DNA of 56,053 nt from a virus: the IMG/VR virus record IMGVR_UViG_3300045941_000468, positions 1 through 56,053 of that record. One strand, given 5' to 3'. Numbering within the stretch: position 1 is the first letter of the stretch; each line of letters begins with the position of its first letter. Made by a program: the position numbers and the translations under genes. The notes beneath the pieces were generated by a model that searched no databases, was not told where the DNA came from, and saw nothing but the letters and a program-made list of their open reading frames with translations. Of the stretch, positions 6,817 through 56,053 are shown in pieces.

Positions 6817-6841
6817 CATGCATATGCATCTGTGCTACGAT
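6813..6841 (+). promoter_or_regulatory. Strong sigma70-type promoter with palindromic operator in its spacer
   Basis: -35 TTGACA at 6813-6818, exact 17-bp spacer, -10 TACGAT at 6836-6841 preceded by TGTGC. The spacer contains the palindrome ATGCATATGCAT (6818-6829), and a second near-copy starts within the -10 (6839-6852). A homologous promoter lies at 53911-53939. A protein bound to either palindrome should block RNA polymerase, so this looks like a repressed promoter for the genes at 6888 and 7313. Confidence 0.85.
6817..6830. promoter_or_regulatory. Operator-like palindrome, copy 1
   Basis: CATGCATATGCATC; the inner 12 bases are a perfect palindrome lying between the -35 and -10 of the 6813 promoter. 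Confidence 0.7.
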
Positions 6842-34442: not shown

Positions 34443-35491
34443 CTGCCGATCCCGTAGATGACCCGCGACAGCCGCAGGGCCTTCACGGTGAGGTTGCCGC
34501 CGAAGAGAATCTGGCCCGCGACCTGGTTGTCCTGCCGCGCGCCCTTGAAGCCGGTGAACCCGAACGCGAACTTGCGCGACTGCGCGATGTAGAGGCGGAT
34601 GTAGGCGTCGTCGCCCTGCGGCCCGAAGTTGAGCCACCAGAACGTCTCGTTCGGGGCGTAGTAGTTGCCCAGATCCTCGTCGTTCACGCCGTCGGCGCCC
34701 GGGCAGTACTGCGACATCGTGATCGTCGCCTTGTCGAACTTCATGCCCGGCCAGTTGATCTCCGGTTGGGTCGTGTCGATGATCTGGTGCGGGAGGAAGT
34801 TCTCGGCGATGAAGCCCATGCAGCGGTTGGTCGTGATGCCGATGGTGGGCGCTTCGTTGCCGATGATGCAGCTGAAGTAGCTGTGACGCAGCACGCGGTA
34901 GGAGATCGGCTGGCCGTTCAGGTTCGCCGGGATGAGCCCGGTGGGCGCATCGAGCGCAGGCGTGACGTCGACGCGTGTCTGCCCGCCGTAGCTCGGGAAG
35001 AGCGTGCCCGTCCACGAGGCGGTGGCGGCGGAGCCGAAGGCCTCTTCCAGGCCGTTGATCTCGGCGGAGCGATCGTCGCCCACGATCGGTTGCCCGTGGT
35101 GGAACGCGGCGATTTCGAGGATGGCGGACATGGTGAGCGAGGCCTGCGCCATGTCGGTGCGGATGACGCTGAACGCCGCCCGCGGTCCGGCCATTTCGAC
35201 TTCGAGATCTTCGAGGAACTCGGTCACGCCGACCTGGTAGTAGCGCGGCCCGAACAGCAGGCCCGTGCGGGTCTGCCGCTTGAGGATGTCGAAGCTGGCG
35301 CCCTTCTTGTACGCGCCGCCCTTCATCGGCTTGTACATGAAGTTCTCTTGTATCTGCGGACCGATCCACTTCCGGTTGAAGCGCGATTTCGCCATCGCGA
35401 TGAAGGGACCGGCCTTGAAGTAGCCGTCGACCACACCCGGTTCGATTTCCTTGGTGACAGTCGTATTGACGTCGTCGAGCTGAATGGGCAC
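34439..35491 (-). CDS. Major capsid protein (HK97-fold type)
   Basis: 350 residues. Its position right after the scaffold gene and its size fit a major capsid protein. Sequence features are an N-terminal arm (TVTKEIEPGVVDGYFKAGPF), an E-loop-like stretch with YKPMKGGAYKKGASFDI, a long central helix (RTDMAQASLTMSAILEIAAF) corresponding to the spine helix, and a beta-rich C-terminus (ARQDNQVAGQILFGGNLTVK). No protease domain precedes it. It forms the shell subunits together with the decoration proteins downstream. ATG start with GGAGG upstream. Confidence comes from context and topology rather than a precise family match. Confidence 0.8.
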   Translation of the reverse strand: MPIQLDDVNTTVTKEIEPGVVDGYFKAGPFIAMAKSRFNRKWIGPQIQENFMYKPMKGGAYKKGASFDILKRQTRTGLLFGPRYYQVGVTEFLEDLEVEMAGPRAAFSVIRTDMAQASLTMSAILEIAAFHHGQPIVGDDRSAEINGLEEAFGSAATASWTGTLFPSYGGQTRVDVTPALDAPTGLIPANLNGQPISYRVLRHSYFSCIIGNEAPTIGITTNRCMGFIAENFLPHQIIDTTQPEINWPGMKFDKATITMSQYCPGADGVNDEDLGNYYAPNETFWWLNFGPQGDDAYIRLYIAQSRKFAFGFTGFKGARQDNQVAGQILFGGNLTVKALRLSRVIYGIGS

Positions 35492-35523
35492 AGCAGCCTC
35501 CTAGAGTGAGGCGGGAGCAGTGA

Positions 35524-36348
35524 TCACATGCCGCGGGCTTGCTGCAGCCGCTCGTACTCGGCGACGGCGGTATCCAGCGTGTGCGCCTGCGACCCCTCTT
35601 TGGTCGAGAGGACATCGAGCGGGGACGACTCCTGGCGCAGCGGGAACGGATGCGAGCTGTTCGCCTTGAGGCGCTCGCCGAGCCGCTGTTCCACGAGGTC
35701 GTTGATCCGCTTGTCCTCGGCTTCCTTCGCCTTGGCCTGGATCCGCTCGCCATACCGTTCGGTGTAGGCGTCTTGGAGCGAGAAGACACGACCGGGCTGA
35801 CCCATCACCGGCTTCCCCAGCTTCGGGTTGGCGATCAGCTCGGTCATGTCGAGCGGTTCCTGAAACAGGTGCATGTGCCGGGCACCCTGCGTGGCGAGGA
35901 AGGCACTGACGGCGATGTAGTCGCGCCCCGCTTCGTTGATGCGCGCATCGGCGATGCGCGCGATCTCCTCGGCGGTGAGCTGCGCGGGCGTCTGCAGCGG
36001 TGGGGTCGGATTCGGGTTCGGGTTCGGGTTGGGATTGGGATTGGGGTTGCCGTTGCCGTTCCGTCCGCCGTTGGCCTCCAGCTCGCGTGCGCGATCGAGC
36101 GCACTCTTGTTGTCGGCGAACCAGCCGTTCAGACGCTCGTAGTACGCCGTCAACTCGCCTTCCTTTTCTCGCAAGGTATCCATCGAGCGGCTGTAGTCGC
36201 TCCGGGCCAGCGCGCCATCTCCGAGGAGCGTGACGGCCTCCTTCGCTTCTGCCGCATTGAAGATGGCCTCGGCCTGTGCGCGCTGCTCCGGGGGGAGCTT
36301 GGCGAGCACGCCAGCCATGAAGGCCTGTCCACTCTCAAATGCACCCAT
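35524..36348 (-). CDS. Capsid scaffolding protein
   Basis: 274 residues from the ATG at 36348 (GAAGGAGAC upstream); the longer frame has no ribosome-binding site. It is highly charged and helical: N-terminal (LAKLPPEQRAQAEAIFNAAE), a central helix (DTLREKEGELTAYYERLNGW), then an Asn-Pro dipeptide repeat region (about 111-124), then acidic/basic helices (RIQAKAKEAEDKRINDLVEQ) and a flexible C-terminus. This is typical of scaffolds, which direct procapsid assembly and leave before packaging. It lies immediately upstream of the capsid gene. The dipeptide repeat is encoded by a hexanucleotide repeat. Confidence 0.8.
   Translation of the reverse strand: MGAFESGQAFMAGVLAKLPPEQRAQAEAIFNAAEAKEAVTLLGDGALARSDYSRSMDTLREKEGELTAYYERLNGWFADNKSALDRARELEANGGRNGNGNPNPNPNPNPNPNPTPPLQTPAQLTAEEIARIADARINEAGRDYIAVSAFLATQGARHMHLFQEPLDMTELIANPKLGKPVMGQPGRVFSLQDAYTERYGERIQAKAKEAEDKRINDLVEQRLGERLKANSSHPFPLRQESSPLDVLSTKEGSQAHTLDTAVAEYERLQQARGM
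36008..36060 (-). repeat. Hexanucleotide repeat encoding Asn-Pro dipeptides in the scaffold gene
   Basis: About nine imperfect copies of AAYCCN/AACCCS (on the minus strand) encode NPNPNP. Because the unit is six bases, slippage would lengthen or shorten the linker without breaking the frame. Confidence 0.8.
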
Positions 36349-41928: not shown

Positions 41929-42348
41929 TCAGCCCGCCCGGTAGAAGATCTCGTCCTGGATCCGGTCGACCGCCGCCTTCATCTCCGCTTCGACCGTGCG
42001 CCCGCGCTTGGCCGCCCGGTGCTGCAGCTCACTGAGCTGCCCGGGGGTGAACGGGAGGCGGATGTCGCCGATGCGCAGCGAGGCGAGGCGGTCGATGGCG
42101 AGGACGAGCGCCTCGGGCGTGCGGGTCGAGCCCAGCCCGCAGATCTCCTCCAGGCGGGCGCAGTCGGCGGGCGTGAGCTGCAGGCCCGGCGGGGGCGCGG
42201 CGCGCCAGCCCTCCAGTGCTCGCGTCACCACCCCTTCGATCTCCGCGGTGAGCGAGCGGATGCGCGGGTCAGGCGCGCTGGCGATCGTCGAAGTAGAGCC
42301 CGCCGGTCTCGTCGGTGAGGGCGTAGGTGTCGTCTTGGACGGACTCAT
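41929..42348 (-). CDS. Hypothetical protein with possible C-terminal RHH/helical domain
   Basis: 139 residues if started at ATG 42348, which overlaps the terminase end by 80 bases in another frame; a GTG pair near 42231 would give a shorter product of about 100 residues. The first 35 residues are Ser/Thr/Pro-rich. The C-terminus IRLPFTPGQLSELQHRAAKR followed by TVEAEMKAAVDRIQDEIF looks like strand-helix-helix and could be RHH-like. No firm family. The stop is separated by one base from the tiny membrane gene. Confidence 0.5.
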   Translation of the reverse strand: MSPSKTTPTPSPTRPAGSTSTIASAPDPRIRSLTAEIEGVVTRALEGWRAAPPPGLQLTPADCARLEEICGLGSTRTPEALVLAIDRLASLRIGDIRLPFTPGQLSELQHRAAKRGRTVEAEMKAAVDRIQDEIFYRAG

Positions 42349-44557
42349 GATCGGTCTCCAGGTCGTCGGCTTCCTCAGCGGTCATCGCCGAGTTGCGGTA
42401 GTCGGGTTTCTCGGTGCGCGCCTCGCGCGCCTGCTGCTCGATCGCCGACTTGCGGCGCCGCCGCTCGGCGATCGGTTCGACTTCGCCGCCCGCCATGCGC
42501 CAGGCGACGTAGTAGCCGATGGCGGACGACATCACGGTGTCGTCGTGCTGCCCGCGCGCGGCCTCGGCCTCGCCGATCGAGGTTTCGGTGATGAAGTGCC
42601 GCAGCTCCCCGCGCGTGATGGGCGAGTTGAGGATCAGGTCGGGGAGGCGGCTGATCGGATCGAAGGTGGTGACGGCGCCGTAGTAGCTGGCGAGCAGCAG
42701 CGGGCGCGTGCGCGGGTTGGTCTGCCAGCCGATGCGGGTGGAGTAGCGACGCTCCTGACTGGCGGCGTCGGCATACTCCCAGACGTAGAAGTGCGCGTAG
42801 CCCAGATGCAGCTGCAGGGCGTCCTGCGTCGCCAGCCCGTGGTTGTTGGTCTCGATCGCCGCCATCGCCTCGATGCCGTCGGGGTCGGCGTAGTAGCGGC
42901 CGATGGCGTCGCAGACGAAGGCGAGCGCCTTGGGGTCGAGCTGATTGGTGATGTACTGCGCGACCTGCTCGGCGGGCTCCTCCATCGAGGGGAGGCGGAT
43001 GACGTCGACGACCGAGTAGTCCTGGCCCAGGCCGTCGCTGACGTCGACGCCGAGGATGTAGCGGCGCGTGCCGCGCAGGCGCGGGTACTCCCAGATCGCC
43101 ATGACGCTGTGGCGGAGGGAGGGGAGCTGCGCCAGCTGCTCGGCCGAGAGGCGGCGGAAGCCGTAGCCGGGCGGCACCGGCGTCGTCTCGTGGCTCAGTG
43201 GGGTCGAGAAACGCGCGATCGCGGGCGCCAGCGGCGGGACCACACGCTGCCGCTGGACGTCAGCGGTCTCGGGCTGGCCGCGCAGTTCGGCCACCGCCAG
43301 CGCGGGTTCCACGCTCCAGACGTCCCGCAGGGGGCGGAGCGAGCCTGCGCGGTCGATCGCTTCGAGCTGTTCGAGGGTGAAGACCGAGCGGCCCGCATAC
43401 TGGAAGCACTCCTGATCATCAGCGGGGTACTCCTTCAGGAACTTGTACAGCTGCCCTTTCGATTCGTAGAAGCGGCGCGTCTTCTCGTACCAGTACAGCT
43501 GGTCGCGCGAGAGCGTGACGGTGCGCCCGGCATACCACTTCGGGCTGTCGCGTTCGCACTTGGCGGCGTGCGCGAGGGTCGAGGGCGAGGGGTCCCAGCC
43601 CGCCGGGGCGGGGAGCGAGTACTTCTTCGGCTCGGCACTCCACGGGATGAAGATGTTGCGGAAGCGCCCCTCGCCCTGCCCGCTGGCGAGCCAGTGCTTG
43701 TGCCACCAGTCCCCGGCGTACTCGGCGGTCGCCTCGTAGATGACGAGGGTGTCGGCGGCGTAGGGGATGGCGGGGAGGAGCGCGGTGTCGAGCTGCTCGG
43801 GGTTGTCCCAGGTGGGCAGCTCGCTGATGTGCACGACCGAGTAGGTCTGGCCGCGCCCGATCGACCCCTTCGTCCCTTCGGTGCCGGTCACGGATTGCAG
43901 GGCGCCGCGGGTGGACTTGCCCCAGGCGGTTTTCAGAAAGCACTGGTTGACGAGACTGAGTTCGCGGTTCTTGTTGAAGTACACCCGCTCGGGCTTGAGG
44001 AACCACGGCAGCTGGTCGTAGATGCGCACGACCATGCGGAACAGATACCCGGCCTGGTCCTCGACGTCGGCCGCGGAGAGGGCGCGGATGTGCGTGCGGG
44101 TGACGATGCGGTGCGCCACGAGCGACTCGGCAAGGGTCGAGACCCCCAGCTGCCGGGCCTTGAGCACATTGAGCAACAGGCCGTCGGGCGAGCCGCTCGT
44201 GACATTCGCCATCTCCATCCGCGCGAGCTGGTCGAGCACCATCGCCTGCGACTCCCACAGCGGCGAGAGGCGGCGCAGCCCGTGGCCTTCCTGGTCGATC
44301 CAGACGAAGCGCTCGGCGAAGTAGGGGAAGTCGTAGGGGCAGCGCAGGCGCGAGCTGCCGACGAAGCGCTGCTCGTCCTCGGTGAGGGGACGGCGCGGCT
44401 GTCCGGACTCGTCCATCGCCTGCATGGCGCTGCTGGTGAGGGTGGCGCTGTCCGCGACCGAGTAGCGCGGGATCCCATCAGGGAAGACGGCGCGGAACTT
44501 CTGCGCAATGACCGCTTCGTCCTCCGCGATGAGATCCGGGTGGTACATGGCCGTCAC
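42269..44557 (-). CDS. terL: Terminase large subunit
   Basis: 762 residues. ATPase domain: Walker A-like KARQLGVST at 133-141 and Walker B VVHISE at 241-246. Nuclease domain: ILGVDVSDGLGQD (Asp505), FVCDAIG (Asp550) and GQHDD (671-673), matching the acidic triad of the RNase H-like headful nuclease. It translocates DNA into the capsid through the portal and cuts it. The GTG at 44557 overlaps the upstream stop (GTGA); an ATG at 44548 is the alternative. The insert between the domains (about 400-500) is long. A Gln/Arg/Glu-rich C-terminal tail probably binds the portal. Confidence 0.92.
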   Translation of the reverse strand: MTAMYHPDLIAEDEAVIAQKFRAVFPDGIPRYSVADSATLTSSAMQAMDESGQPRRPLTEDEQRFVGSSRLRCPYDFPYFAERFVWIDQEGHGLRRLSPLWESQAMVLDQLARMEMANVTSGSPDGLLLNVLKARQLGVSTLAESLVAHRIVTRTHIRALSAADVEDQAGYLFRMVVRIYDQLPWFLKPERVYFNKNRELSLVNQCFLKTAWGKSTRGALQSVTGTEGTKGSIGRGQTYSVVHISELPTWDNPEQLDTALLPAIPYAADTLVIYEATAEYAGDWWHKHWLASGQGEGRFRNIFIPWSAEPKKYSLPAPAGWDPSPSTLAHAAKCERDSPKWYAGRTVTLSRDQLYWYEKTRRFYESKGQLYKFLKEYPADDQECFQYAGRSVFTLEQLEAIDRAGSLRPLRDVWSVEPALAVAELRGQPETADVQRQRVVPPLAPAIARFSTPLSHETTPVPPGYGFRRLSAEQLAQLPSLRHSVMAIWEYPRLRGTRRYILGVDVSDGLGQDYSVVDVIRLPSMEEPAEQVAQYITNQLDPKALAFVCDAIGRYYADPDGIEAMAAIETNNHGLATQDALQLHLGYAHFYVWEYADAASQERRYSTRIGWQTNPRTRPLLLASYYGAVTTFDPISRLPDLILNSPITRGELRHFITETSIGEAEAARGQHDDTVMSSAIGYYVAWRMAGGEVEPIAERRRRKSAIEQQAREARTEKPDYRNSAMTAEEADDLETDHESVQDDTYALTDETGGLYFDDRQRA

Positions 44558-50272: not shown

Positions 50273-50538
50273 CCCCGCTTCCCGCAGACCTGGCACCACT
50301 CGGTGCAGTCGTGCGTCCCGCCCTCGTCCGCCAGCTTGCGCGCCAGCGCCACCGCGCCATCGACCCCGAGGTGCTGGTGCGCGCGAAAGGCGCAGAGCTG
50401 CGCCAGGACGCTGAGATCGCCGAGCAGTTCATCGACGGGCAGGTCGCGCCAGATCGCCAGCAGCGTCGTGTGGCGCTGCAGGCGGGCGTGATCGACCTCG
50501 GTGATCGCGGCGAAGGGGGTGCCGTCGTCGTGCGACAT
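50269..50538 (-). CDS. Small hypothetical protein, first gene of the leftward unit
   Basis: 89 residues from ATG 50538. ITEVDHARLQRHTTLLAIWR, DLPVDELLGDLSVLAQLCAF, ARKLADEGGTHDCTEWCQVC. Helical, with a CxxxCxxC end that could bind zinc. No good ribosome-binding site is visible before the ATG, so the start is uncertain; T-rich tracts (ATTTTTTC) lie 25-50 bases upstream. The promoter of the leftward unit is expected here, but I cannot identify it. Confidence 0.55.
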   Translation of the reverse strand: MSHDDGTPFAAITEVDHARLQRHTTLLAIWRDLPVDELLGDLSVLAQLCAFRAHQHLGVDGAVALARKLADEGGTHDCTEWCQVCGKRG

Positions 50539-51006
50539 CGGCCGCGAGGCTATCACAGGGAGTGAACAGAAAAAATCACGACGAAAAAATATCTGGAGTC
50601 GAGCGCGGGCGCTCCCGCCCTGGCCGCAGGGGGCCTCGCGGACAATGCAGCCGCGTGCAGTTCTGGGCACTGGCGCGCAGCTGCGTGCAGATCCGTGCAT
50701 CGCCCACAGCTGCAGGGGCGCAAGGCGGGCGGCGCGGCGGCGCGGCGGATGGCTGAGAGGCGGCGCGGCAGCTGGCGGGGCGATCGCGAGGCGAGTTAAT
50801 TGTTGACAGCAAAGGACTTATGCGCTCAGGGTCGTATAGGAATGGTTATGTTAACCAGCCCGGCAGTAGGTCGAGGCCTCGGGCACAAGCTGCAGGGGCG
50901 TACACAGGCTGGTGAGACGGCCTGCGAGACGCCTGCAGCTGCGGGGGCGACGTGAGCCGGGGCCGGGTACACCCGGCAAGCGGGCAGCGGGCGGGCGGTA
51001 CCTGGG

Positions 51007-51028
51007 AATGACGAAGCCCTTCGTCATT
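51007..51028. promoter_or_regulatory. Perfect inverted repeat AATGACGAAG-CC-CTTCGTCATT
   Basis: Ten-base arms, two-base centre. It is followed four bases on by a related palindrome with the same TGACGAA/TTCGTCA half-sites; a pair of repressor operators is the simplest reading, a pair of RNA hairpins the alternative. Confidence 0.6.
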
Positions 51029-51031
51029 CAC

Positions 51032-51049
51032 TGACGAAAGCTTTCGTCA
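51032..51049. promoter_or_regulatory. Perfect 18-bp palindrome TGACGAAAGCTTTCGTCA
   Basis: Second member of the tandem pair; centre-to-centre distance from the first is about 23 bp, two helical turns, as expected for cooperative repressor binding. Confidence 0.6.
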
Positions 51050-51180
51050 ACCCACAGCCGGGGCCTAGCGGGGATCACCTGCCGGGCCGGGCGGCTCGGC
51101 GGGCGGCTGATCGGGGTCGCGAGACAGCTCCCTTTTAGGTCGTCTGGCCGGTAATTCTCAGAATCGGACACAGCCTCAGC

Positions 51181-51197
51181 TGTGCTGGGATAGCACA
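51181..51197. promoter_or_regulatory. Inverted repeat TGTGCT-GGGAT-AGCACA
   Basis: Six-base arms, five-base centre, in the less G+C-rich part of the control region. The TGTGC/GCACA half-sites also flank the -10 of the RHH gene promoter at 571-589, so one protein could read both. Confidence 0.45.
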
Positions 51198-51491
51198 CGG
51201 AAAACACGCTGGAATGCTGAGCGAAAGCGCATGTCGTGGAGGCATATCACAGGTCTGTGTTCATAGGTGAGACACGCTGCACACTTTGGCGATCTTTCTT
51301 CAGGTATTTTCGAGGCTCAGGAAGGGCCCCGGAAGGCCTCTAGCGTGCCCTGTGGCGAGAGCGATCGATTTTGGCGGGTACCCCCTTACCGGAGGCGCGT
51401 TCGTCGCCCCAGCGCAAAATCCGGATCTAGGCAGACTGGGCTGTTCGGGGTCGAAAGCGGTGCTGTAGGAGGGATAGATCAATACGGGATC

Positions 51492-51588
51492 GCTGACAGC
51501 CTGACAGCTCGAAGCTGCGCGGGGCGGAATGTGCCTGCAGGCCGGGGGGCTTGACACTGAAAGCTGACAGGCTGTAAGCTTGACAGCC
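51492..51588 (+). repeat. Clustered TGACA(G) words upstream of the DUF932 gene
   Basis: GCTGACAG (51492), CCTGACAG (51500), GCTTGACAC (51549), AGCTGACAG (51562) and GCTTGACAG (51578): five same-strand words within 100 bases, immediately upstream of the gene at 51642. They may be iterons or an activator/repressor array; two of them supply TTGACA. Confidence 0.5.
51551..51580 (+). promoter_or_regulatory. Putative promoter for the DUF932 gene
   Basis: TTGACA at 51551-51556, 18-base spacer, TAAGCT at 51575-51580 (weak -10 keeping TA...T). It would start transcription about 55 bases before the ATG at 51642. A second TTGACA-like word (51580-51585) has no clear -10. Confidence 0.4.
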
Positions 51589-51641
51589 GGGCCCATTCCG
51601 GGCCGCGCACAGTCGGGCACAGACCCGCAGGAGTAACGAAC

Positions 51642-52613
51642 ATGGCATATCAGGCACAGACCCCGTTCCACGTTGTCGGCACCCGGACCGCGTCCCTCAC
51701 CAACCTTGACGAGGCCCTGCAGAAGACGGGGCTGGACTGGCAGATCGACAAGCGCAAGCTGTACCTGGCGGACGGCACCGAGTTCAAGGGGCACTTCGGC
51801 ATGGTCCGGCTGAACGGCGACGGCTCGATCAAGTCGCAGCTGGGCGCGGTCGGCGCCAAGTACCACCCGACCACCAACCGGCAGAACGTGGAGATGATCG
51901 AGCCGCTGCTGTCGCGGTTCGGCTGCACGGTGGAGAGCGGCGGGACGTTCAACGGTGGCCGTCGGTGCTTCCTGCTGCTCAAGTTCCCGGGCGTCAAGAT
52001 CGACGTGGTCCCGGGCGACAGCCTGAAGGGCTTCAACCTGCTCTCGTGGAACCACGACGGGCAAGGCGGCGTCCGCAACAATCCCACCACCATCCGGCCC
52101 ATTTGCGCCAACACGCTGGCGGCGGCGGCGGCGCAGTGTGAAGCGTGGGCGATGGTCCAGCACCGCGCGGGGGCGGCGCAGCGGATCGACGAAGCGGCCA
52201 AGGTGGTCGAGCAGATCGTGGCGGCGATGATCGCGGCGGGCGAGAGCTTCGCGGCGCTGGCCCGGGCCCGGATGACGCGCAGCGACCTGCAGGCGTTTGT
52301 CGAGCGCATCATCCCCAGCGAGGCGGAGGAGGTGTCCACCGTCATCCGCGAGCGGCGCGAGAGCATCGTGGCGCTGGCGAGCGGCGGGCGCGGCGCCGAC
52401 ATGGCGAACCAGCTCGTGAGCACCGTGGACGGTGGCGTGAGCCTGTGGGGCGCGATCAACGGGGTCAGCGAGTACTTCGACCACGTCCGCCCGGCTGAGG
52501 CGAAGTCTGAGGCCACCCGGCTGAAGGCGAACGAGAGCGCCCTGTTCGGCGGCAATGCGCTCGTCAAGCAGCTGGCGCTGGCCGAGGCGCAGCGGCTGCT
52601 GGGCGCGAACTAG
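51642..52613 (+). CDS. DUF932 phage/plasmid-like protein
   Basis: 323 residues; ATG with GCAGGAG upstream. The signature LGAVGAKYHPTTNRQNVEMI, GCTVESGGTFNGGRRCFLLL, PGDSLKGFNLLSWNHDGQGG, TIRPICANTL identifies the DUF932 (phage/plasmid-like TIGR03299-type) family. This family is common on plasmids and phages, often near replication or recombination genes, and has no established biochemical function. The C-terminal half is helical (AAQRIDEAAKVVEQIVAAMI). As the first rightward gene after the control region it is likely early and highly expressed. Confidence 0.85.
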   Translation: MAYQAQTPFHVVGTRTASLTNLDEALQKTGLDWQIDKRKLYLADGTEFKGHFGMVRLNGDGSIKSQLGAVGAKYHPTTNRQNVEMIEPLLSRFGCTVESGGTFNGGRRCFLLLKFPGVKIDVVPGDSLKGFNLLSWNHDGQGGVRNNPTTIRPICANTLAAAAAQCEAWAMVQHRAGAAQRIDEAAKVVEQIVAAMIAAGESFAALARARMTRSDLQAFVERIIPSEAEEVSTVIRERRESIVALASGGRGADMANQLVSTVDGGVSLWGAINGVSEYFDHVRPAEAKSEATRLKANESALFGGNALVKQLALAEAQRLLGAN

Positions 52614-52626
52614 GCGCGGGCAAGGC

Positions 52627-52652
52627 CCCATCCGCCCTGCGGGGCGGGTGGG
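52627..52652 (+). other. Intercistronic hairpin (11-bp stem, TGCG loop)
   Basis: CCCATCCGCCC pairs with GGGCGGGTGGG (one G-U pair) around TGCG, 13 bases after the DUF932 stop. No U tract follows, so readthrough is likely; it could stabilise the upstream mRNA or attenuate. A second short inverted repeat (AGGCC-TGC-GGGCCT region) follows it. Confidence 0.65.
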
Positions 52653-52707
52653 CTCCCCTGAGGCCTGCGGGCCTGAGGCGGGCCCATACCGGGACCGGAT
52701 GCAACGG

Positions 52708-52725
52708 AGAGGACAACGAGCAATG
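52708..52725 (+). promoter_or_regulatory. Conserved ribosome-binding leader AGAGGACAACGAGCAATG (copy 1 of 6)
   Basis: The same leader, with small changes, precedes starts at 52723, 53171, 53645 (shortened), 54023, 55343 and 55866: GAGAGGACAACGAGCAATG, GAGAGGACAACGATCATG, GGGAGGACACGAGCATG, GAAAGGACAACGAGCAATG, GAGAGGACAACGAGCCATG, GAAAGGACAACGACCATG. Conservation of the ACAACGA spacer beyond the Shine-Dalgarno core suggests recent duplication or a specific translational signal. Confidence 0.8.
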
Positions 52726-53082
52726 ACATACGAATTTGTGGTCGAGCTGAAAGCGACGTTTCAGGAGCTGCTGTCGCGGCCGTTCCGGCCGGGCGACATC
52801 GAGATCAGGGACGTCCGGCCGGTGGCGCCAGAGGCCGCACAGGAGCCCGTGGCGGGCCCGGTGGGCGACGTTCGGCCGGTGAGTGTGCCTCAGGAGCCTG
52901 TGGCCGCGGCGCCTGTCCAGCGACCGCTGGCGGGCCGGACGCCCAAGGCAGCGGCAGCGGCGCGGGCGGGACGGTTCCGGATCAACGCGGCGGGCATCAG
53001 GGACGCGGCGCCTGCCCAGCCCACGGCGGCGCCTGCGGTGGCGCCCGCCAAGCCGGTGGCGCCGGAGTTCGACCCGTTCTAG
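52723..53082 (+). CDS. Small hypothetical protein with Ala/Pro-rich middle
   Basis: 119 residues behind leader copy 1. The N-terminal part TYEFVVELKATFQELLSRPF, PGDIEIRDVRP looks folded. The middle is Ala/Pro/Val-rich (PVAAAPVQRPLAGRTP), and the C-terminus ends with acidic PEFDPF, reminiscent of the flexible tails of single-stranded-DNA-binding proteins, though no OB fold is evident. Function unknown. Confidence 0.65.
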   Translation: MTYEFVVELKATFQELLSRPFRPGDIEIRDVRPVAPEAAQEPVAGPVGDVRPVSVPQEPVAAAPVQRPLAGRTPKAAAAARAGRFRINAAGIRDAAPAQPTAAPAVAPAKPVAPEFDPF

Positions 53083-53097
53083 GTCGTGGTTCCACGT

Positions 53098-53125
53098 CGC
53101 CCTGCGGGCCCCGGCTCGCAGGGCG
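53098..53125 (+). other. Intercistronic hairpin CGCCCTGCG...CGCAGGGCG
   Basis: A perfect 9-bp stem with a ten-base loop, 16 bases after the previous stop and upstream of leader copy 2. It uses the same CGCCCTGCG word as the hairpin at 52627, so the hairpin plus leader may be a repeated intergenic module. Confidence 0.6.
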
Positions 53126-53170
53126 GAGCGGAGACACGGCCACAGGCCAGCATCGGAGAGGACAACGATC

Positions 53171-53488
53171 ATGCGTGACACGACGATCAACGCGGCGGCG
53201 GAGCGGCGGGTGGAGTGGGGCAACTGGGCGCTGCTGTTCTACTGGCAGGTGCCGGGCGTCTACGGCCCGGAGCGCATCGAGGGGCGCCTGCCGTTCCCGG
53301 TGGGCGCCCGCGGCCCGATGGACGGCTGTCTGGGCACCGTCGAGCGGCAGCGGTACGTGGACGCGTCCAAGGCGTGGATGGACCGCGGCGAGCTGCCCGC
53401 GGGGCTGTATCGCCGGTGCGAGGCCTGCGGCACCGAGTACCGCGCGGAGCGGGGGGAGTGCAGCTGTTTCGACAACGGGTGCCAGTGA
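53171..53488 (+). CDS. Small zinc protein behind leader copy 2
   Basis: 105 residues. NWALLFYWQVPGVYGPERIE, PMDGCLGTVERQRYVDASKA, then YRRCEACGTEYRAERGECSC. The C-terminal CxxC...CxC cluster probably binds zinc. No function known. Stop is one base before the next ATG. Confidence 0.65.
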   Translation: MRDTTINAAAERRVEWGNWALLFYWQVPGVYGPERIEGRLPFPVGARGPMDGCLGTVERQRYVDASKAWMDRGELPAGLYRRCEACGTEYRAERGECSCFDNGCQ

Positions 53489-53489
53489 C

Positions 53490-53648
53490 ATGCTGACGCT
53501 GGCGTGGGTGCTGACGCTCTACACCGGCCCGCTGCCTGTCAGCGAGCCGGTGGCGTGGGGGATGCTGGCAGAGGCCGCGGCAGAGGCCGCGGGGCTGTGG
53601 CTGGCGGTGGGGCTGGCCCTGTGGCGTGAAGGGAGGACACGAGCATGA
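53490..53648 (+). CDS. Small membrane protein
   Basis: 52 residues: a hydrophobic start (MLTLAWVLTLYTGPLPVSEP), a second hydrophobic helix (GMLAEAAAEAAGLWLAVGLA), and a basic end (LWREGRTRA). Probably one or two membrane passes. No obvious ribosome-binding site; it is coupled to the preceding gene. Overlaps the next start by ATGA. Confidence 0.5.
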   Translation: MLTLAWVLTLYTGPLPVSEPVAWGMLAEAAAEAAGLWLAVGLALWREGRTRA

Positions 53649-53913
53649 GACACCAGCACAACGTGGAGGTCGCGAGCCAGTACGCGCCGGGCGACCCGGC
53701 GTGGCTGGCGGAGACGCTGCAGCGGCGCTACTTCGCCCCGTACGCTGTACGCAGTGTCAGCTGCCGGTGTCCCTGACGCCGGACTGGACCCTGTGGCCGT
53801 GGCCGGACGGGGCGCAGCTGTGCGCCCGCTGCAACGAGGCGCGGCACGCGCGCGAGGACTGGACCGAGATCGAGCGCCGCGAGGCGGCGGCGGAGGCGAA
53901 GCGCCGTCAGTAG
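53645..53913 (+). pseudogene. Zinc-ribbon small gene split between two frames (possible -1 frameshift)
   Basis: Behind a shortened leader, ATG 53645 opens a frame (MRHQHNVEVASQYAPGDPAW, LAETLQRRYFAPYAV) that stops at 53776. Another frame one base back, open from GTG 53701 to 53913, carries a good zinc ribbon: RCTQCQLPVSLTPDWTLWPW, DGAQLCARCNEARH, then a charged helix. G/C at third positions switches from the first to the second frame at about 53745-53755. A -1 shift would join them into one protein of about 89 residues. It may be a mutation, sequencing error or programmed shift; two independent overlapping genes are less likely. Confidence 0.5.
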
Positions 53914-53939
53914 ACTTGCATATGCATCCATGCTAGGAT
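53911..53939 (+). promoter_or_regulatory. Second palindrome-bearing promoter, homologous to 6813
   Basis: -35 TAGACT at 53911-53916, 17-bp spacer, -10 TAGGAT at 53934-53939. The spacer holds TGCATATGCATC (53917-53928) and a second palindrome begins in the -10 (53937-53950). About 30 of 40 bases, including every landmark, match the promoter at 6813. It drives the gene at 54023. The TAG at its 5' end is the stop of the preceding gene. Confidence 0.8.
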
Positions 53940-53950
53940 GCATATGTTTC
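53937..53950. promoter_or_regulatory. Operator-like palindrome variant at the 53911 promoter
   Basis: GATGCATATGTTTC: left half exact, right half degenerate. Same position relative to the -10 as the second operator at 6839. Confidence 0.55.
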
Positions 53951-54022
53951 ATCTCATCTCTCAAGCCGGGCGCGAGCGGACGGAGGCCCCGACGACGCGC
54001 CCGGACGAAAGGACAACGAGCA

Positions 54023-54616
54023 ATGGCGACCAAGCGCACGAACAAGCCGACGCAGGCCCTGTACCTGCACATCATGGAAGAGCGCAGCCCCGGCTGGGGC
54101 GACGGGCCCTACTTCCACATCCGCCTGCGCGTCTGCACGCAGAAGTACGAGAACGGCCAGTACGTGGTCTACGGCGTGGACGACGACTACGACAACGGGA
54201 TCCTCTACAGCAACCTCCGCATCAGCTGTCAGGGCGACGAGAAGAGCCGCCTGCGGGAGCACATCGGCCACAACGGCGCGGTGTACGGCTGGGACGTGCT
54301 GTACCACGACGTCTACACCGTGGACGCGCGGAAGGCCACGCGCATGTCCAAGACGCTGGCGCTGATCGAGCGCAAGCTGCGCCAGCTGGCCGACCGCCGC
54401 GGCTACGCGGGGAACTTCGGCGACTACTGCGGGCGGGTGGCCGAGGCGCTGGGCTGCGTGGGCATGGTCGAAACCCGCGGCGAGAAGGGACGCGTGAACG
54501 TGGGCGACAAGTTCCGCTGGCACGCCAACATCGGGGACGGGATCAACGCGATCAACAACGCGATCTGGCGCTGGCAGCAGGAGGCGAAGGAGAAGGGGCA
54601 GGAGGCGGCGTCGTGA
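54023..54616 (+). CDS. Operator-controlled hypothetical protein
   Basis: 197 residues behind leader copy 4; an in-frame ATG at 53930 lies inside the promoter and is rejected. ALYLHIMEERSPGWGDGPYF, HIRLRVCTQKYENGQYVVYG, DNGILYSNLRISCQGDEKSR are strand-rich; the C-terminal half is helical (MSKTLALIERKLRQLADRRG, VAEALGC, NAINNAIWRWQQEAKEKGQE). No family is recognised. Its expression appears to be co-regulated with the genes at 6888 and 7313 through the same operators. Confidence 0.7.
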   Translation: MATKRTNKPTQALYLHIMEERSPGWGDGPYFHIRLRVCTQKYENGQYVVYGVDDDYDNGILYSNLRISCQGDEKSRLREHIGHNGAVYGWDVLYHDVYTVDARKATRMSKTLALIERKLRQLADRRGYAGNFGDYCGRVAEALGCVGMVETRGEKGRVNVGDKFRWHANIGDGINAINNAIWRWQQEAKEKGQEAAS

Positions 54617-55077
54617 CCGCGCCTCCCTTCGAGCGTACGACTTGCGCCTGCCCGGAGTGTCAGGCCTGCTGCACCCGCCAGCCGGGGCCGCTCATCCCCG
54701 GCCAGCTGGAGGCGATTGCCGCGTACCTGGGCAAGACCGTCCGTGAGGCGAGCAGCCTGTTTGTCGCCAGCCCCGGCGGCGTCATGGGCAACCGCGCGAC
54801 CGGGGCCCAGCTGCGGGTGGGCACGATCACCCCGCGGATGAAAGACGGCCGGTGTGTCTTCCTCGACCGGCAGGGGGCCTGCCGCATTCACCCGGTCGCG
54901 CCGTTCGGGTGCAGTCACTTCGATACGCATATGAGCGGCGAGGAGGGGCAGCGCCGTGGCCTGTGGATGATGCGCCTGCAAGCGAGCGACGAGGCGTACC
55001 AGTCGCTGCGCCGCACGCTGGCCCCGGCGACCAGTCACCGCCCGCTGGCGTACGACCACGACGGGGGCGAGCGATGA
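54613..55077 (+). CDS. YkgJ-like Cys-cluster (zinc/iron-binding) protein
   Basis: 154 residues from GTG 54613 (GTGA overlap). CACPECQACCTRQPGPLIPG, then CVFLDRQGACRIHPVAPFGC and SHFDTHM match the CxxC...C...C-I-H/Y-x-x-R-P-x-x-C pattern of the YkgJ/CxxCxxCC family, which binds zinc or iron; here the usual Arg of RPxxC is replaced (HPVAPFGC). Between them is a helical region (LEAIAAYLGKTVREASSLFV). Biochemical role unknown. Confidence 0.7.
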   Translation: MTAPPFERTTCACPECQACCTRQPGPLIPGQLEAIAAYLGKTVREASSLFVASPGGVMGNRATGAQLRVGTITPRMKDGRCVFLDRQGACRIHPVAPFGCSHFDTHMSGEEGQRRGLWMMRLQASDEAYQSLRRTLAPATSHRPLAYDHDGGER

Positions 55078-55316
55078 CGCGGTGTGCCAAGGGCGATCAT
55101 GTGCTCGACGCCTTGGCGCAGCTGCACGGGCAGACGGTCTGCACCGATTGTCAGGCGCGGCCGCGCACCCGGCGGCGCCGCTACTGGCGCGGCGTCTGCG
55201 AGGACTGCACGCGTGAACGGGAGGTGACCACCATCGCCTTCCCTGACAGCCCCCAGCGGCGGCGGGTGTGCCGTCGCTGCATTCGTACCTACACCGGGAT
55301 GATCATCGCGCCCTGA
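55074..55316 (+). CDS. Small multi-CxxC zinc protein
   Basis: 80 residues (ATGA overlap). CAKGDH, CTDCQARPRTRRRR, CEDCTRERE, CRRCIRTYTG: four Cys pairs or singles with Arg-rich linkers, likely two zinc knuckles. The Arg content suggests nucleic-acid contact. Function unknown. Confidence 0.65.
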   Translation: MTRCAKGDHVLDALAQLHGQTVCTDCQARPRTRRRRYWRGVCEDCTREREVTTIAFPDSPQRRRVCRRCIRTYTGMIIAP

Positions 55317-55342
55317 GCCGGGCGCAGAGAGGACAACGAGCC

Positions 55343-55617
55343 ATGAGCCGAGAGATTCGCGTACGACTCCGCAAAGATATTGCTGTGTGCGACGGGCAGA
55401 CGTCCACCGTCGTCTTCGCAGGGACCGAGGGCACGGCGTTGAGCGTCAACAGCCCCGAGGACAGACTGCGCGACAAGCCACGCACCATCGCCGTGAGCTG
55501 GGACGCCGCCCTGCTGAACGAGAGGACGATCCCACCTGTGTCACCACCGGCTGGGAGGCGGCGGCGGTCGCGATTGAAGACGTCGAGTACATCGGGCTGA
55601 TCGAGCGCCCGGAGTAA
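55343..55617 (+). pseudogene. Small gene with likely -1 frameshift near 55530
   Basis: Behind leader copy 5, ATG 55343 opens REIRVRLRKDIAVCDGQTST, VVFAGTEGTALSVNSPEDRL and TIAVSWDAALLNE, then degenerates into Arg/Ser-rich residues before stopping at 55600. The frame one base back, ending at 55617, continues sensibly as DDPTCVTTGWEAAAVAIEDV, EYIGLIERPE. A -1 shift around 55525-55535 would give one folded protein of about 91 residues. This is the same type of break as at 53645-53913. Either mutation or sequencing error, or a programmed shift. Confidence 0.55.
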
Positions 55618-55623
55618 AGAGCC

Positions 55624-55869
55624 GTGACCTGTCCCTACTGCGGGTGGGTACATGTACCTGGCGAGCTATGCCCACCCGCCACGATGGACGACGACCAGCT
55701 GATCGAGCAGCTACTCGTCGCGTTGAAGCTGCAGCACGAGGACGAGGCGCGGCGCCTGACCATCGAGGTCCAGCGCCGCGGGCTGGTGGCGCGGGCCTTC
55801 GCACGCGCCGAGGAGCAAACGAACGAGGACCGGCGCCGACTGGGCGCCACGAAAGGACAACGACCATGA
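55624..55869 (+). CDS. Small zinc-finger-like protein
   Basis: 81 residues from GTG 55624. CPYCGWVHVPGELCPP at the N-terminus is a compact Cys cluster, followed by a long helix (DQLIEQLLVALKLQHEDEAR, RLTIEVQRRGLVARAFARAE). Its stop overlaps the next start (ATGA). Function unknown. Confidence 0.6.
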   Translation: MTCPYCGWVHVPGELCPPATMDDDQLIEQLLVALKLQHEDEARRLTIEVQRRGLVARAFARAEEQTNEDRRRLGATKGQRP

Positions 55870-56053
55870 ACGGACTGACCCCCGAGGCGATCACCCTGCT
55901 GCGGCAGGTGTGTGAGGACGCCGCTGGCGACGGCACCTGCACGCACAGCATGGCGCTGCGCGGCATGGCGGCGATCGACGCCCTGCCGCCCGCCCAGCCA
56001 GACTCCACGATCCAGTGCGGCATGGGCCGCTACACCCGGGGGCATTTCCGGCG
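55866..56053 (+). CDS. Hypothetical protein, cut by the right window edge
   Basis: 62 codons visible behind leader copy 6: LTPEAITLLRQVCEDAAGDG, TCTHSMALRGMAAIDALPPA. The gene runs off the window, so length and family are unknown. Confidence 0.55.
   Translation, partial: MNGLTPEAITLLRQVCEDAAGDGTCTHSMALRGMAAIDALPPAQPDSTIQCGMGRYTRGHFR

Follow-up and report, generated by a model that had tools for sequence, protein, structure and literature searches.

Here, we describe a short leader, AGGACAACGA, that stands repeatedly just before the start codons of unrelated small genes in one arm of the virus record IMGVR_UViG_3300045941_000468 (IMG/VR). The window is this whole record of 56,053 bases, labelled G000 in comparisons with relatives. 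The leader is conserved beyond its Shine-Dalgarno (SD) core, the gaps in front of genes of this arm have an excess of predicted hairpins, and several related phages carry other leaders at the same place. We consider it likely that the leader is a start-associated element within an insulating intergenic module, which is uniform in each lineage and replaced between lineages.

AGGACAACGA is present in five exact copies (52710, 53159, 54010, 55330 and 55854), with an ATG 2-3 nucleotides (nt) after each. A sixth copy, AGGACACGAGCATG at 53634, lacks one A; it is outside the reach of mismatch scans and was read directly in the sequence. The original prediction had counted six copies of one leader from 52708 onwards. 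Six copies stand if one deletion and one or two variable bases before the ATG are allowed, but the exact 19-mer GAGAGGACAACGAGCAATG is found only once, and the start coordinate was off by one. With up to three mismatches the 19-mer has three copies, compared to a mean of 0.02 expected in shuffles. The core RRAGGACAACGA has five exact copies, all on the plus strand, and six matches with up to one mismatch (0.55 expected), the sixth of which, at 35607, is away from any start. Copy 1 is the exact 19-mer including the ATG (52707-52725, gene 52723-53082), followed by copy 2 (GAGAGGACAACGATCATG, 53156-53173, gene 53171-53488), the one-base-deletion variant copy 3 (GGGAGGACACGAGCATG, 53631-53647, open reading frame (ORF) 53645-53776, placed by hand-gapped alignment) and copy 4 (GAAAGGACAACGAGCAATG, 54007-54025, gene 54023-54616). 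Copy 5 (GAGAGGACAACGAGCCATG, 55327-55345) precedes ORF 55343-55600, which was missed by the gene caller and added by hand, and copy 6 (GAAAGGACAACGACCATG, 55851-55868) lies within the 3' end of the preceding ORF, with an ATGA overlap. All copies are on the plus strand, opposite to the gene of TerL (terminase large subunit), and the exact leader is confined to about 3.2 kb after a DUF932 gene.

In the hand-gapped alignment of the six copies, AGGACAACGA is invariant except for one gap in one copy; the G three bases 5' of it and the C immediately before the start are invariant as well. Conservation is hence not limited to the SD core and includes the spacer CAACGA, contrary to what would have refuted the original prediction. 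The spacer test compares the 6 nt after the SD four-mer at up to one mismatch among proximal genes, that is, those in the first 15 kb from TerL. In the window one spacer is common to six of the eight SD-bearing proximal genes (P=0.001), while 1000 permutations gave at most four. These six are the genes of five leader copies, including the hand-added ORF 55343, and the DUF932 gene (51642-52613, plus strand), the first of the cluster, whose start region AGGAGTAACGAACATG has only the spacer AACGA in common with the leader. Alignment, spacer test and blastp together uphold the earlier claim of conservation beyond the core before unrelated genes. By blastp, none of the six leader ORFs matches another at E<=1, and against the called genes of the window there is no match better than E=0.25. 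Duplication of one gene together with its leader, followed by divergence of the proteins beyond recognition, would also produce such repeats, and in one relative (G021) two leader-gene starts are almost alike (L069:2162, L076:8861). However, given the lack of similarity among the window's leader ORFs, the complete ones of which range from 43 to 197 amino acids, we find this origin hardly credible.

A search of the viral collection with TerL gave 77 loci, of which 62 have 53-100% identity and one is the same phage. Of these 62 contigs we studied 24, chosen by their length and by how far they extend past TerL; one of them, G020, duplicates a part of G019. The search for the leader proposed in the original prediction yielded no further exact copy in the window, and the relatives are almost devoid of AGGACAACGA (once in one of the 24, and once each in two of 15 TerL-relative records). 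Several of them have other leaders instead, which had not been foreseen. In all, a leader can be named in six phages, with five types among them. The leaders of relatives, again before starts in the same arm, are CAGGAGACACGACCATG in G019/G020, GAGAGAGAGGC with ACACACGTG upstream in G021, a GA tract similar to that of G021 with ACACACGT in G024, GAGAGGAGAGAGCGATG in G030 and RAAAGGACACC in G036. The leader differences between relatives are therefore seen in a handful of phages.

In the pair test, two non-homologous proximal genes of a phage count as similar if 12 or more of the 15 bases upstream of their starts match, and the number of such pairs is compared with random cross-phage draws. Input were 22 phages, 20 of them with at least five genes; ORF 55343 is missing from the window set, and G018, G020, G038 and G034 (which repeats most G032 leader places) are not included. 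In eight of the 20 phages P is below 0.02 (G000, G019, G021, G030, G032, G011, G024 and G036; hereafter the leader phages). The pairs number 7/136 in the window (P=0.018), 19/276 in G019, 57/297 in G021, 61/406 in G030 and 10/153 in G032. After correction for 20 tests, significance remains in G019, G021, G030 and G032 only, and not in the window. For the distal arm the lowest P among 18 phages is 0.06, so that no phage reaches P<0.05. Genes with the leader at up to two mismatches (proximal plus, distal plus, minus strand) are 5/19, 1/13 and 0/56 in the window, where one of the five is a weak tail match and ORF 55343 is uncalled, 6/26, 0/27 and 1/38 in G019, 14/27, 1/34 and 1/39 in G021, and 12/29, 1/23 and 1/45 in G030. 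G036 has 10/26 proximal and 0/27 minus-strand genes, with no distal gene. G019, G021 and G030 clearly keep their leaders to the proximal arm; in the window this confinement is weaker, and G024 and G032 do not show it. In the spacer-only test P=0.001 is reached by three of 20 phages, the window, G019 (6/18) and G030 (9/21). In the TerL tree all eight leader phages fall within one clade (17 of 23 rows), interspersed with leaderless phages, several forks of that clade being unsupported. A comparison of orthologues gave 33 pairs, most of them uninformative. In seven pairs both genes resemble an own-phage gene at 12 or more of 15 bases; the orthologue score is under both own-phage maxima in all seven and not above either own-phage mean in six. 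This result is weak, because maxima gain from many comparisons.

In the leader phages, folding of start regions is weaker for proximal genes (median -4.75 kcal/mol) than for distal (-7.4) and minus-strand genes (-8.25), and the proximal start regions contain 7% T. Because of this lower folding and the position of the leader, translation initiation is its most likely role. As to the uniform strong translation put forward in the original prediction, the less folded starts fit a uniform, open initiation; predicted pairing with the anti-SD is not different from that of distal genes (P=0.83) and is stronger than in minus-strand genes (P=0.002). Plain strong ribosome-binding sites (RBSs) might explain such starts: in a genome of 70% G+C, selection for openness could by itself favour spacers rich in A/C or A/G downstream of the SD, with neither common descent nor a factor involved. 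The low folding and T content agree with this, and the leaders of different phages have their open character in common, not their sequence. However, openness needs no single hexamer, and most SD-bearing proximal genes of the window have the same one, beyond any permutation. We therefore regard selection for openness alone as unlikely.

Hairpins near 52627 and 53098 had been proposed before, and both are recovered by folding on the plus strand. Two adjacent G+C-rich hairpins are predicted at 52632-52687 in the 109-nt gap before copy 1, and a 13-pair hairpin at 53097-53126 in the 88-nt gap before copy 2 (z -4.2, gap minus its last 28 nt). The 109-nt gap before copy 4 contains a 12-pair palindrome or hairpin around GCATATGC (53918-53947, plus strand), a possible operator, and directly before the copy a second predicted G+C-rich hairpin (53965-54006, plus strand). 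We folded gaps of 50-220 nt with the last 28 nt removed and expressed them as z against shuffles. In the leader phages the proximal gaps have a mean z of -2.46 (57% below -2, n=58), compared to -0.62 (8%, n=25) for distal and -0.21 (7%, n=44) for minus-strand gaps. Pair test, gap folding and spacer test thus bear out the notion of a repeated intergenic module with hairpins.

The palindrome GCATATGC occurs five times in the window, always outside called genes, against 0.4 expected by composition, although one other palindrome of the same letters likewise reaches five. The sites (6820, 34418, 41918, 48718 and 53918) mostly read TGCATATGCA and are sometimes in a promoter-like setting, as at 6820 (TTGACA-N17-TACGAT). 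Of the gaps folded before copies 1, 2 and 4, that of copy 4 alone contains it. The palindrome is present at least three times in 11 of 25 records (10 of the 24 relatives studied) and absent from 13. TTGAC lies at most 22 nt upstream of 13 of 44 intergenic sites from 11 records, the close kin G016 and G028 both counted, and was not found in the control stretch. Possibly, the palindrome is a repressor operator. One gap of G028/G016 displays the whole module, with hairpin, TTGACA, palindrome, -10-like hexamer, leader and ATG; the spacing to the hexamer is 14 or 19, neither of which is standard. The two phages are alike until about the leader, continue with unrelated genes that have different leaders, and are alike again in the next gap, including its leader. 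Here, gene exchange between modules is seen directly, in a single case.

In the interpretation that we favour, the leader would combine an SD core with a constant A/C-rich spacer of little structure, and would be used again and again for unrelated small genes in what would be the non-structural arm of an integrase-bearing phage. The module would run from the stop codon over a hairpin, and in some gaps a promoter-like site with the palindrome, to the leader and the ATG. It would insulate each gene or short operon, allow open and uniform initiation and perhaps serve early expression, and several relatives would have modules of this kind built with a different leader. Uniformity and turnover of the leader would most likely come about when genes are duplicated, gained and exchanged along with their flanking modules, and cassette exchange is the most likely cause of the turnover. 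That leaders are alike within a phage, different between phages and fixed in place at the start codon could also be expected of the target of a trans-acting phage factor, an RNA-binding protein or small RNA, that changes together with the leader. However, such a factor is itself only hypothetical, the exact complement of AGGACAACGA was not found in the window, and a G016 gene has another leader in the same arm; we judge this very unlikely. Quite doubtful, too, is a private translation-start code per lineage, in which a leader read by a factor would be uniform over the early genes and replaced as a set. If it were true, cassettes from a relative would have to adopt the resident leader for timely expression. 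The family of about 60 contigs with its changing leader is a natural variant series, in which position, openness, hairpins and arm are kept and the sequence is free, and this makes reading of the leader by a factor testable.

Several observations weigh against a leader-bearing, insulating module. Hairpins are frequent, too, in the proximal gaps of phages in which no leader is significant (mean z -1.30, 32% below -2, n=60; distal -0.27, 15%, n=40; minus strand -0.58, 19%, n=69). TTTT is present in only one of the 29 gaps looked at, and therefore the hairpins are not classical intrinsic terminators. A promoter and terminator scan of 50500-56053 gave a single terminator-like site and not one promoter, which is less than in shuffles; with the TTTT count, consensus sequences thus lend no support to terminator or promoter roles in the window. 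The two genes swapped between G016 and G028 carry different leaders, and therefore crossover did not take place at the leader itself in this case. The swap as such fits the gene shuffling that the original prediction had envisaged, but not with the leader as the place of exchange. The GA-rich leader of G024 is no rarer distally (4/6) than proximally (7/20; 2/14 on the minus strand), and in G032 the leader is found before 3/39 distal and 2/18 proximal genes (0/45 on the minus strand). The leaders of G021, G024 and G030 are GA-rich and may be a simple repeat acting as SD. Twelve of the 20 phages do not reach P<0.02 in the pair test, among them G035, which is sister to G019 by TerL, and the spacer-only test fails in 17 of 20, including G021 (P=0.08), G036 (P=0.16), G011, G024 and G032. 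A first test over the whole plus arm with gaps of at least 12 gave P=0.12 for the window, with two leader ORFs omitted (55866, for its gap, and the uncalled 55343); the proximal test with a looser gap limit was designed after this result and is post hoc. The case of the window rests more on the motif counts and the spacer test than on the pair test.

Some candidates and neighbouring features were set apart from the leader. In G032 the standout start-linked repeat is GGGCGCCGCCG, seven of whose ten copies in the record stand before an ATG, and we treat it as a different thing. At about 35000-36300 of G032 (L157-L160), GGGCGCCGCCGATG is repeated at gene starts and an SD is absent. A contig overlapping the window, IMGVR_UViG_3300045926_000355 (L006; 99.96% identity over 11.9 kb), extends 8.4 kb beyond the window end, and no convincing additional leader copy was found in this extension. 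The near-match at 12393 of L006 was rejected since it is in frame inside a gene, and a weak match with two mismatches before gene G001tail_003 was not accepted. Ten stretches with AGGACAACGAGCAATG in other viral contigs, two of them in the overlapping contig, were taken as chance; seven of the eight remaining contigs have a single AGGACAACGA and one has two. L006 carries 49 extra bases at 55921-55926 of the window, where its two window matches overlap by 6 bases, which is either a deletion variant or an assembly error. The ORF after leader copy 3 stops early, and a second frame just downstream encodes a CxxC-type protein; a frameshift within 53645-53913, real or an error, is possible.

The leader cluster lies in the rightward (plus) arm beyond TerL (42272-44557, minus strand), and the window also encodes an integrase (893) and a DNA polymerase (3383). 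At its cut-off Pfam names two of the ten cluster proteins, DUF932 and CxxCxxCC (54613), and outside the cluster 17 larger proteins were scanned, 13 of them without a PHROG match. Among GenBank phages we found no DNA match to 51001-56053 and none to the 54023 protein; identity was at most 26.5% for TerL (12 matches listed of 263 records) and 27.1% for DUF932 (12 listed of 252). TerL alignment did not find a relative in the genome collection. A complete tRNA-Thr(cgt) (2136-2212) adjoins the integrase gene and is a probable attachment site; the same tRNA type is present in G013, G014, G018 and G028, and its 42-nt 3' part has no exact match in the genome collection. Between the two arms, 50539-51641 (1.1 kb) has no called genes, contains short repeats and palindromes, and is a possible origin or control region.

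Repeated intergenic elements of phages have been described before. The PeSLs of T4-like phages are reportedly, going by a title alone, intergenic composite promoter-terminator motifs that mediate modular shuffling; we know of no uniform RBS leader in them. In the open-licence literature we did not find such leaders in other phages beyond cases of the type discussed below. The closest known systems are the Start-Associated Sequences (SAS) and ESAS of Cluster K mycobacteriophages and an SAS-like motif of Cluster EF Microbacterium phages. According to the Cluster K papers (PMC12699233, PMC11373665), SAS were described in 2011, and their role was still called unknown in a 2024 paper. As described there, SAS and the window leader are both repeated, asymmetric RBS sequences a few nt before mostly ATG starts, mostly in one orientation in the non-structural arm, before different gene families and conserved past the pairing with 16S rRNA. 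An inverted repeat lies upstream of about half of the SAS, and in Adephagia this repeat contains a putative promoter; the ESAS is an imperfect inverted repeat of 17 bp that precedes the SAS and includes a promoter. In the SAS phage Anaya, 87 of 1485 pairs are similar (0.059, homologues included, compared to 0.051 in the window), and the published motif is on 14 of 55 right-arm genes. The SAS consensus GGGATAGGAGCCC has no copy at up to one mismatch on the leader strand of the 26 sequences.

The Cluster EF motif GGGAAAGGACCCC (PMC7302621), whose role its authors, too, call unclear, occupies RBS positions ten times, is accompanied upstream by a weak element, and has AAAGGAC in common with window copies 4 and 6. 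However, its flanking GGG/CCC is absent from the window leader, and the spacer CAACGA is absent from its consensus. Cluster O mycobacteriophages have 17-bp dyad repeats that are likewise dispersed and in many cases intergenic, and at which the authors infer recombination deletions; these (PMC4351075) are palindromic and not closely tied to start codons, unlike the window leader. There are two further differences to the SAS. One 13-bp consensus serves most subclusters of Cluster K (few copies in K4, none in K8), whereas here the leaders differ between relatives, and the 2011 authors found little support for hairpins in the ESAS, whereas hairpins are in excess here. Thus, what is new is a start-associated leader whose sequence differs between related phages, together with the excess of hairpins.

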